From Ammonifex sp. (lineage in GTDB: Bacteria; Bacillota; Desulfotomaculia; Desulfotomaculales; DYER01), in the NCBI GenBank assembly GCA_020725605.1, contig DYER01000044.1, positions 1 to 35,090 of the forward strand: a stretch of 35,090 nucleotides of DNA. The letters run 5' to 3'. The notes under the pieces were generated by a model that searched no databases, was not told the origin of the DNA, and saw nothing but the letters and a program-made list of their open reading frames with translations. This document shows, in pieces, positions 861 to 35,090 of the stretch (position 1 is its first letter; each line of letters opens with the position of its first letter). The position numbers and the translations under genes are program-made.

Positions 861-890
861 TTGCGCCGCGGGGTTCGTTTGGGGTATAAT
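861..890 (+). promoter_or_regulatory. sigmaA-type promoter, TTGCGC-N18-TATAAT, upstream of the ANTAR regulator leader
   Basis: TTGCGC at 861-866, TATAAT at 885-890. Confidence 0.6.
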
Positions 891-903
891 CGGAGTGAGC
901 CGA

Positions 904-938
904 CGGTGACAACGGTGTTCCGGAGGGCAGGGTGGCCC
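904..938 (+). promoter_or_regulatory. Candidate ANTAR-target two-hairpin RNA in the leader of the ANTAR gene
   Basis: P1: CGG(T)GAC-[AACGGT]-GTTCCG (904-922). P2: GGGC-[AGGGTG]-GCCC (925-938). Both hexaloops have A at position 1 and G at position 4. The P2 3' arm overlaps the terminator 5' arm. Confidence 0.55.
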
Positions 939-963
939 GGTTCGCACCGGGCCTTTGTATTTT
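934..963 (+). terminator. Intrinsic terminator/attenuator upstream of the ANTAR regulator
   Basis: GGCCCGGT-TCGC-ACCGGGCC followed by TTTGTATTTT, 20 nt before the likely TTG start. Confidence 0.75.
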
Positions 964-982
964 CTGGCGAGGGGTGGTGGGA

Positions 983-1597
983 TTGTACCATGGCACCGTC
1001 GCCATAGGGGCCAGGGAGGAAAAGTTGCGGCGCGAGCTGCGGGCCCTGCTCGCTTCCTGGGGCTGGACCGTGGTGGGGGAGGCGGCGGACGGGGCCGGCA
1101 TGCTGCGCCTGGTGCACGGCGCCAGGCCGGACGTGGTCGTGTTGGACGAGGAGCTCGAAGGCGTGGACGGCCTGGAAGTGGTGCGCAGGCTGGGCTCCGA
1201 GTACGCGGTGGTCCTGGTGACGCCCTACCCCCAGGGCCGGGCCCTGGATGCCCTGCAGGACCTGTGGGTTTTCGGACTGGTGACGCGCCCGGTGGAGGAG
1301 ACCTCCCTGCGCCTGGCCCTGGCGCTGGCCACCGCGGGGTTCCAGAAGGTGCGCCGGCTGGAGCGGGAGGTCGGCGAGCTCAAGGAGAAGCTGGAGACCA
1401 GGAAGGCGGTGGAGCGTGCCAAGGGTATCCTGATGGAGGTGCTGGGGCTCAGCGAGGCCGAGGCCTACAGGCGCATGCAGCGCCAGAGTATGGACCGGCG
1501 CGCCTCCATGCGCACCATCGCCGAGGCCATCATTACGACGTACGAGCTGCAGCGGGGGGCCCTGGAGAAGCCGCCCCCGCAGCGGAAGAAGCGGTAG
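983..1597 (+). CDS. ANTAR-domain response regulator (AmiR/NasT type) with a degenerate-looking receiver
   Basis: ORF 932..1597, likely TTG start at 983. C-terminal ANTAR signature: KAVERAKGILMEVLGLSEAEAYRRMQRQSMDRRASMRTIAEAII. Confidence 0.9.
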   Translation: MYHGTVAIGAREEKLRRELRALLASWGWTVVGEAADGAGMLRLVHGARPDVVVLDEELEGVDGLEVVRRLGSEYAVVLVTPYPQGRALDALQDLWVFGLVTRPVEETSLRLALALATAGFQKVRRLEREVGELKEKLETRKAVERAKGILMEVLGLSEAEAYRRMQRQSMDRRASMRTIAEAIITTYELQRGALEKPPPQRKKR

Positions 1598-1903: not shown

Positions 1904-3232
1904 TTGGGCTACACCAAAGAGGACGTTCTGAAACTCTTCAAAGAGGAAAACGTCAAGTTCGTGCGCCTGCAGTTCACCGACATCCTGGGCATCCTGAAGA
2001 ACATGGCCATCCCCGTGGAACAGGCCGAGAAGGCGCTGGAAGGGGAACTTATGTTCGACGGTTCGTCCATCGAGGGTTTCGTGCGCATCGAGGAATCGGA
2101 CATGTACCTGAGGCCGGACCCCAACACGGTGGCCATCTTTCCCTGGCGGCCGCGGGAAGGAGCCGTGGCGCGCCTGATCTGCGACGTCTACAACCCCGAC
2201 GGCACGCCCTTTGCCGGGGACCCACGCTACGCCCTGAGACGGGTGGTGGCCGAGGCCGCCCAGATGGGCTTTACGGCCTACTTCGGCCCGGAGTGCGAAT
2301 TCTTTCTCTTTCACGTGGACGAGAAGGGCCGGCCCACCACCGTAACCCACGACCAGGCCGGTTACTTCGACCTCAGCCCCGTGGACCTGGGGGAGAACGC
2401 CCGGCGGGAGATCGTACTGGTTCTGGAGCAGATGGGCTTCGAGATCGAGGCCTCCCACCACGAAGTGGCGCCCGGACAGCACGAGATCGACTTCAAGTAC
2501 TCGGACGCCCTGGACACCGCGGACAAGATCGTCACCTTCCGCATGGTGGTGCGCACCGTGGCCCAGCGCCACGGGCTGCACGCCACCTTCATGCCCAAGC
2601 CCATCTGCGGCATCAACGGGTCGGGCATGCACACCCACCAGTCCCTGGCCCGGGGCGGGGAAAACGCCTTCTACGACCCCCATGGACCCAATCAGTTGAG
2701 TGATATTGCCTATTACTACATCGGGGGCCTGATGAAGCACGCCCGGGCCCTTTCTGCCATCTGCAGCCCCACCGTGAACTCCTACAAACGCCTGGTGCCC
2801 GGCTACGAGGCCCCGGTCTACATCGCCTGGTCCAACCGCAACCGCAGTCCCCTCATCCGGGTGCCGGCCAAACGCGGACCCTCGACCCGGGTGGAGTTCC
2901 GCAGCCCGGATCCCTCGTGCAACCCCTATCTGGCCATTGCGGCAATGCTTAAGGCCGGGCTGGACGGTATCAAAAAGAAGATCCAGCCGCCCCCGGCGGT
3001 GGACCGCAACATCTACGAACTTACCCCCCGGGAACGTGAGGAGCTGGGTATCGGCGTGCTGCCTTCTTCCCTGCGGGAGGCCCTGGACGAACTGGCCCGG
3101 GATGAGGTCATCAAGGAGGCGCTGGGACCCCACATCTACGCCAAGTTCATGGAAGCTAAGGAAAGGGAATGGGACTCCTACCGGGTGCAGGTGCACCAGT
3201 GGGAGCTGGACCAATACCTGACCAAGTTTTAG
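1904..3232 (+). CDS. glnA: Glutamine synthetase type I
   Basis: 442 aa, TTG start. [34 protein letters not shown] and [12 protein letters not shown] motifs are characteristic of GlnA. Confidence 0.98.
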
Positions 3233-4884: not shown

Positions 4885-4910
4885 GATAGAGAATAACCGT
4901 TGTGGGGATC

Positions 4911-5003
4911 CCCGGGGGTGCTCGCGAGAGGCGGGCTGAGAAAGGCACCCGATGAAGTGCCTTACCCTTGGAACCTGACCTGGGTAATGCCAGCGGAGGG
5001 AGA
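4911..5003 (+). promoter_or_regulatory. TPP riboswitch (THI element)
   Basis: GGGGTGCTC...GGCTGAGAAAGGCACCCGATGAAGTGCCTTACCCTTGGAACCTGACCTGGGTAATGCCAGCGGAGGGAG matches the conserved THI box; followed by thiC. Confidence 0.97.
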
Positions 5004-5020
5004 GGGGGCCGGGCTACACC

Positions 5021-35046: not shown

Positions 35047-35090
35047 CCCAGCGGAGGGCAAACCCGGCGAAAGCCGGGGACGCAAAGCCA
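35047..35090 (+). promoter_or_regulatory. Cyclic di-GMP-I (GEMM-I) riboswitch aptamer, 5' part, truncated by window end
   Basis: GGAGGGCAAACCCGGCGAAAGCCGGGGACGCAAAGCCA: conserved AGGGCAAACC, GAAA tetraloop hairpin, GGACGCAAAGCC. Confidence 0.93.

Follow-up and report, generated by a model that had tools for sequence, protein, structure and literature searches.

A candidate ANTAR-target attenuator before an ANTAR regulator gene next to glnA

Analysis of a 35,090-nt stretch of DNA (the window), the start of contig 36 in a 2.2-Mb genome of 115 contigs, points to an ANTAR response-regulator-like gene that carries an ANTAR antitermination leader of its own. The 5' leader of this gene, in a transcript expected from ~897, is likely an ANTAR-target attenuator, and the encoded protein most likely controls the glutamine synthetase gene glnA and amplifies its own synthesis; we draw this from the letters of the DNA, given that the gene product is an ANTAR protein and that the adjoining glnA leader, which is of the same kind, has the same promoter type. 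The preliminary description of the locus, which proposed that the regulator has its own leader, is supported by conservation at orthologous loci (35 of 37), by covariation of the stems and by the 12 genomes in which just one ANTAR gene was detected. The RNA and its mechanism are of a known kind (EutV/AmiR/NasR), and the circuit arrangement is little noticed and widely conserved. In this testable circuit an antiterminator must first read through the terminator that stands before its own gene, and the genomes with a single ANTAR gene provide clean systems in which memory, thresholds and bistability in nitrogen assimilation are directly testable.

Anatomy of the regulator leader and its locus

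The regulator gene lies at 983-1597 on the + strand and encodes a protein of 204 aa with a REC-like domain and ANTAR, as identified by Pfam. Its TTG start at 983, considered likely beforehand, agrees with the closest orthologue, which has ATG-TAC where the window has TTG-TAC, and a likely ribosome-binding site, AGGGGTGGT (970-978, + strand), lies 4 nt 5' of it. The sequence carries a sigma-70-type promoter on the same strand (861-890), consisting of TTGCGC (861-866), an 18-nt spacer and TATAAT (885-890). A terminator-like hairpin, GGCGTCC...GGACGCC-TTTTT (1606-1652, + strand), stands 3' of the gene, and the fold of this region (1600-1660) reaches -29.3 kcal/mol; because of this hairpin the regulator gene seems to be transcribed alone, which suggests a monocistronic unit. 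On the other side, between the regulator promoter and the divergent upstream gene (693-1, minus strand), another terminator-like hairpin with TTGTTTTTAA is found at 745-775 on the + strand.

The promoter, two hexaloop hairpins with A1 and G4 and an overlapping terminator were all found where they had first been placed. P1 (904-922, + strand), CGG(T)GAC-[AACGGT]-GTTCCG, was recognized by sequence and folding and has six pairs, one of them G.U, and one bulged U; its hexaloop (911-916) carries A1 and G4, the best fold closes this loop with an A1-U6 pair, and the hairpin keeps the invariant AC-A..G..-GT core of orthologous leaders. P2 (925-938, + strand), GGGC-[AGGGTG]-GCCC, read from the sequence as the antiterminator, has four pairs and a hexaloop (929-934) that also carries A1 and G4; it agrees with the invariant GGC-A..G..-GCC of orthologous leaders, and P2 stems in this family normally have 3-4 pairs. 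The intrinsic terminator, GGCCCGGT-TCGC-ACCGGGCC (934-953) with a TTTGTATTTT U tract (934-963 in all, + strand; -15.7 kcal/mol), overlaps P2: as originally described, its 5' arm contains the 3' arm of P2 and it runs in the same direction, and a terminator scan picks it as well. Given that the upstream gene is divergent, this terminator is best read as an attenuator and not as the end of an upstream operon. The predicted energies were -28.1 kcal/mol for the terminator state versus -18.2 kcal/mol for the dual-hexaloop state, and P1 together with P2 is the favoured predicted fold until the 3' arm of the terminator is made. An extra hexaloop hairpin, TCGG-AGTGAG-CCGA (890-903), was rejected as part of the leader, as it begins 5' of the expected transcript start (~897). 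Folding of a partial transcript also predicted a helix of 897-901 with 939-943, the bases directly 3' of P2.

The neighbouring glnA gene (1904-3232, + strand; Pfam Gln-synt_C, 485.9 bits) has the promoter TTGCGC-17-TATAAT (1774-1802, + strand; by sequence), whose -35 box is identical to that of the regulator promoter. Its leader comprises P1, GGGATC-[AAAGAG]-GATCCC (1819-1836, + strand; sequence and covariance model R2), P2, GGGC-[AAAGGT]-GTCC (1843-1856, + strand; hairpin search and R2), and a terminator with a T-rich tail that overlaps P2 (1853-1880, + strand; folding); model R2 scored it at 18.0 bits (E 0.0033, window). This dual-hexaloop leader (1819-1873) is cleaner than that of the regulator, and glnA is likely the main target. 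The claim that the regulator copy is weaker than the glnA copy held for P1 (-3.7 vs -8.5 kcal/mol) and failed for P2 (-6.0 vs -4.1 kcal/mol).

Orthologous leaders in relatives and the drift of the window's copy

Searching 113 genomes of the order (a search at the level of the class gave the same set), we found a conserved cluster of ANTAR_a - glnA-like - gltB - ANTAR_b - glnA - glnA. In 35 of the 37 loci that could be evaluated, belonging to 15 families, the glnA-adjacent ANTAR gene is preceded by a promoter, two hexaloops and an overlapping terminator, so that the leader seen in the window is matched at the orthologous place. Thirty of these 35 leaders were obtained by script and five were added by eye, three of the latter having a 7-nt P2 loop. 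Their consensus is P1 GGNTAC-ANNGNN-GTNYCC, P2 GGC-AAYGAT-GCC, an overlapping terminator and a ribosome site; the TATAAT usually ends 19-30 nt 5' of P1 and mostly has a TTGNNN box 17 nt before it. In all 35 leaders both loops have G at position 4, and position 1 is A in 31/35 and 33/35 of the two loops and otherwise G. The leaders L040, L053, L054, L072 and L073 have G at position 1 of the P1 or P2 loop, and L036, L050 and L055 have a seven-base P2 loop (e.g. GGC-AATGATT-GCC) in an otherwise canonical regulator leader. The same script found no leader in front of the paralogous gene ANTAR_a (0/26), and none in front of the glnA-like gene (0/19) or gltB (0/29); it found one before 43 of 76 glnA genes.

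Compensatory changes, as expected of conserved stems, were present across the 35 leaders of regulator genes, with the own genome left out: 97.4% of the stem cells are paired and three pairs have changed on both sides, with slid controls at 28-55% paired; these covariation figures lean towards structure because the sequences were partly chosen by pairing. In the glnA leaders of the relatives 96% of the stem cells are paired. A held-out test with covariance model R1, which is free of this pairing-based selection, gave best matches directly before the ANTAR gene in 13 held-out genomes. Model R1 was built from the 35 regulator leaders, own genome excluded and G008 included, and with a match threshold of E 1e-3 it hit 89 of the 99 genomes that have an ANTAR gene and none of the 14 that lack one (113 genomes; Fisher p 7e-12). 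In 12 genomes with one detectable ANTAR gene (G008, G025, G026, G031, G035, G036, G069-G073 and G106) the leader precedes that gene, the R1 match lying 459-483 nt upstream of the ANTAR domain, i.e. just before the gene; two of these genomes, G036 (two contigs) and G071 (one contig), are 100% complete. As each of them has one detectable ANTAR protein, the leader, if it works there, must have as its reader the protein encoded directly downstream. In seven more genomes of the phylum, outside the class, R1 matches immediately upstream of an ANTAR gene, and glnA comes next. Among the few distant relatives obtained by protein search of contigs, Sphaerobacter has ANTAR genes without a self-leader and the ANTAR genes of Mahella sit behind glnA.

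By its sequence the window's regulator leader is a divergent copy. R2 scored it at 10.7 bits (E 0.24 over 35 kb) in an alignment that departs from the drawn P2, and R1 returned a 5.2-bit fragment only; scaled to the 289-nt intergenic strand, the R2 E becomes ~0.001, with P2 aligned through the terminator. A genome-scale search with R1 and R2 did not detect the leader, and the case for it therefore rests on its position, on the invariant pattern and on the orthologues. The protein of the window belongs to a small clade with those of G008, G046 and G027 (tree support 99), beside the ANTAR_b clade, and the self-leader of G008, its closest relative, scored 33.6 bits with R1 (E 1.9e-5; G008 is among the 35 sequences of this model).

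The spacing of the two hairpins is short. By strict stem ends the linker between P1 and P2 is 2 nt, outside the range of the eut leaders (5-12 nt) and below the 3 nt that impaired eutP, where linkers of 3 or 14 nt were detrimental and 3 nt sharply lowered induction (PMC3369931); the eutP spacing is a measured preference and does not define the published ANTAR RNA family, which has a variable linker. Measured from loop to loop the distance is 18 nt, within the 17-27 nt of the relatives, and distances of 17-19 nt are present in their natural leaders.

Proposed mechanism and alternative readings

Pfam assigned to the regulator an ANTAR domain at its C-terminus (PF03861, 77.8 bits; cut-off 27.3) and Response_reg at 44 bits. 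Its receiver keeps the Asp and the Thr, the acid pair is replaced by A/R and the Lys by Arg; with this set incomplete for phosphorylation, we filed it as an ANTAR protein and not as a phosphorylated regulator of the EutV type. Among the ANTAR_b orthologues, roughly half carry Glu in place of the receiver Asp. Given the degenerate receiver, control through a protein partner, in the way known for AmiR, is more likely than control by a kinase.

The predicted terminator state lies ~10 kcal/mol below the dual-hexaloop state without protein, so that the default would be off: the terminator (934-953) would form and the leader would end as a short RNA. Before the 3' arm of the terminator is made, P1 and P2 would be favoured, opening a time window for protein binding, and an active ANTAR dimer could bind the two hexaloops as these emerge. 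The bound dimer would hold the P2 stem and thereby deprive the terminator of its 5' arm, so that transcription would continue into the regulator gene, resulting in positive autoregulation. We infer from the sequence that the protein binds, that readthrough follows and that it is the encoded protein, and neither of its two paralogues, that does the binding.

The genome encodes three ANTAR proteins, the paralogues lying at C35:475-1116 and C35:12408-12983, and the leader could thus be a genuine ANTAR target that is read mainly by one of these two, which would make the circuit a cascade or cross-regulation and not autoregulation. We consider this unlikely. In the EutV structure only the G4 of the loop is contacted base-specifically (PMC8934654), by which specificity among paralogues may be low, and the regulator and glnA leaders have loop features in common; low specificity would, however, also permit self-binding, and the self-leader is kept in relatives with a single ANTAR gene, including G008 with the closest protein. 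It is highly improbable that transcription yields mainly the short terminated RNA, which would expose the P1 hexaloop and act as a decoy for ANTAR protein like EutX/Rli55, providing buffering or negative feedback. EutX does sequester EutV (PMC5821096), one hexaloop is enough for EutV binding (PMC8934654), and the leader has its own promoter and a strong terminator, but EutX is an RNA of its own, and no terminator is associated with its EutV site (PMC5821096), whereas the regulator leader runs into a gene with a ribosome site, which is the standard layout of an attenuator.

The weak scores of the covariance models, the bulged P1 and the short linker, as well as the G+C-rich leader region in which hairpins form easily, would fit hairpins that arose by chance on an ordinary promoter-proximal terminator or on an attenuator answering another signal. 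Several controls make this reading very unlikely. The combined score for a dual hairpin with an overlapping terminator was equalled in none of 3,000 dinucleotide-keeping shuffles and, with the terminator held fixed, in 2 of 3,000; in the whole window only the regulator and glnA leaders attain it. The (nearly) invariant positions of the orthologues' regulator leaders, own genome excluded, define the pattern ACANNGNNGT-N0..22-GGCANNGNNGCC, which shuffling of the intergenic region reproduced once in 20,000 trials; it occurs three times in the 2.2-Mb genome, including the regulator leader and a strong leader of the gltB cluster, and a reversed control pattern occurs twice in the same genome. Against chance also stand the conservation of the leader at orthologous loci and the leader of the paralogue L004:12408-12983 (contig C35), in which a P1-like hairpin (L004:12321-12342) shares the bulge and differs at two stem pairs that stay paired, the A-U and G.U pairs of the window's P1 stem being G-C there. 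An Rfam scan of the window and one canonical leader revealed no ANTAR family and no other match within the leader, which also speaks against this reading. With these two sequences scanned, this kind of RNA is seemingly absent from Rfam 15, and its conserved members are enough for a family model.

Autoregulation through the leader thus remains the preferred reading. A wider version of it, which would make the self-leader a threshold device of ancient origin found throughout the phylum, is unlikely: a partner-switched ANTAR protein, whose partner might be glutamine synthetase, would be amplified by readthrough while the short RNA with exposed P1 would titrate free protein, giving a sharp on/off of glutamine/glutamate synthesis.

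Known systems and further ANTAR elements

Binding of a dual hexaloop by ANTAR proteins and the resulting block of a terminator is an established mechanism (PMC3369931, PMC8934654). The E. faecalis eutP, eutG, eutS and eutA leaders read by EutV resemble the window's leader in having two hexaloop hairpins with A1 and G4, a P2 whose 3' arm overlaps an intrinsic terminator, and a REC-ANTAR regulator (PMC3369931, PMC8934654). Unlike in the eut leaders, the target in the window is the regulator gene itself, P1 is bulged and the linker has 2 nt, and unlike EutV, the REC-like domain is without the normal set of phosphorylation sites. ANTAR RNAs before nitrogen genes were reported in 2012 in Desulfotomaculum reducens and D. 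acetoxidans (PMC3369931, Fig. 9); they are the same kind of RNA in the same setting of glutamine/glutamate synthesis, and these Desulfotomaculum probably belong to the same or a neighbouring lineage. The main text of that paper does not discuss a self-leader of an ANTAR gene or autoregulation (PMC3369931); since the accompanying commentary names glutamine synthetase together with associated regulators (PMC3369936), the paper's supplementary tables may hold single instances. Our literature search on ANTAR autoregulation found nothing relevant.

In the amiECBRS operon of P. aeruginosa the antiterminator gene amiR is likewise downstream of the leader on which AmiR acts, and autoregulation is inferred from the order of the operon (PMC3369936). 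Whereas amiR lies far down a catabolic operon, the window's regulator has its own promoter, a leader directly before the gene and a terminator behind it; its receiver resembles the pseudo-receiver of AmiR more than the phosphorylated receiver of the EutV type. The same circuit logic is known from antiterminators of the BglG/LicT type (CAT/RAT), which act on a terminator before their own gene and to which the ANTAR protein and RNA fold are unrelated. In E. coli, a terminator of the bgl leader stands before bglG.

Further elements of this kind were observed. The leader of the C35 paralogue (L004:12321-12363) has only one hexaloop hairpin with A1 and G4, GG(T)GGC-AACGGC-GCCCC. The 3' arm of this hairpin doubles as the 5' arm of a strong terminator, and the leader is possibly a single-hexaloop attenuator. 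Tandem ANTAR leaders lie between two glutamate-synthase-type genes of the same genome (L004:4255-4300 and L004:4404-4446; R2 26.0 and 36.6 bits), and another ANTAR leader, G000:C52:4234-4279 (L077:1501-1546, minus strand; R2 35.9 bits), precedes the genes of an iron-sulfur protein and of a FAD/NAD oxidoreductase and likely marks a further member of the regulon. In the eut locus of Neobacillus (L102:1390-1560 and L103:1390-1560), a P2-like hexaloop, TAGGC-AAAGGC-GCCTA, overlaps a terminator directly before a histidine kinase/ANTAR gene pair of the eutWV type, and eut loci may therefore have a self-leader too. Elsewhere on the + strand of the window, an ordinary TPP riboswitch (4904-5018; Rfam RF00059, 62.9 bits) lies 5' of a thiC-like gene, and a c-di-GMP-I riboswitch aptamer (35047-35090, 37.8 bits) is interrupted by the end of the contig.
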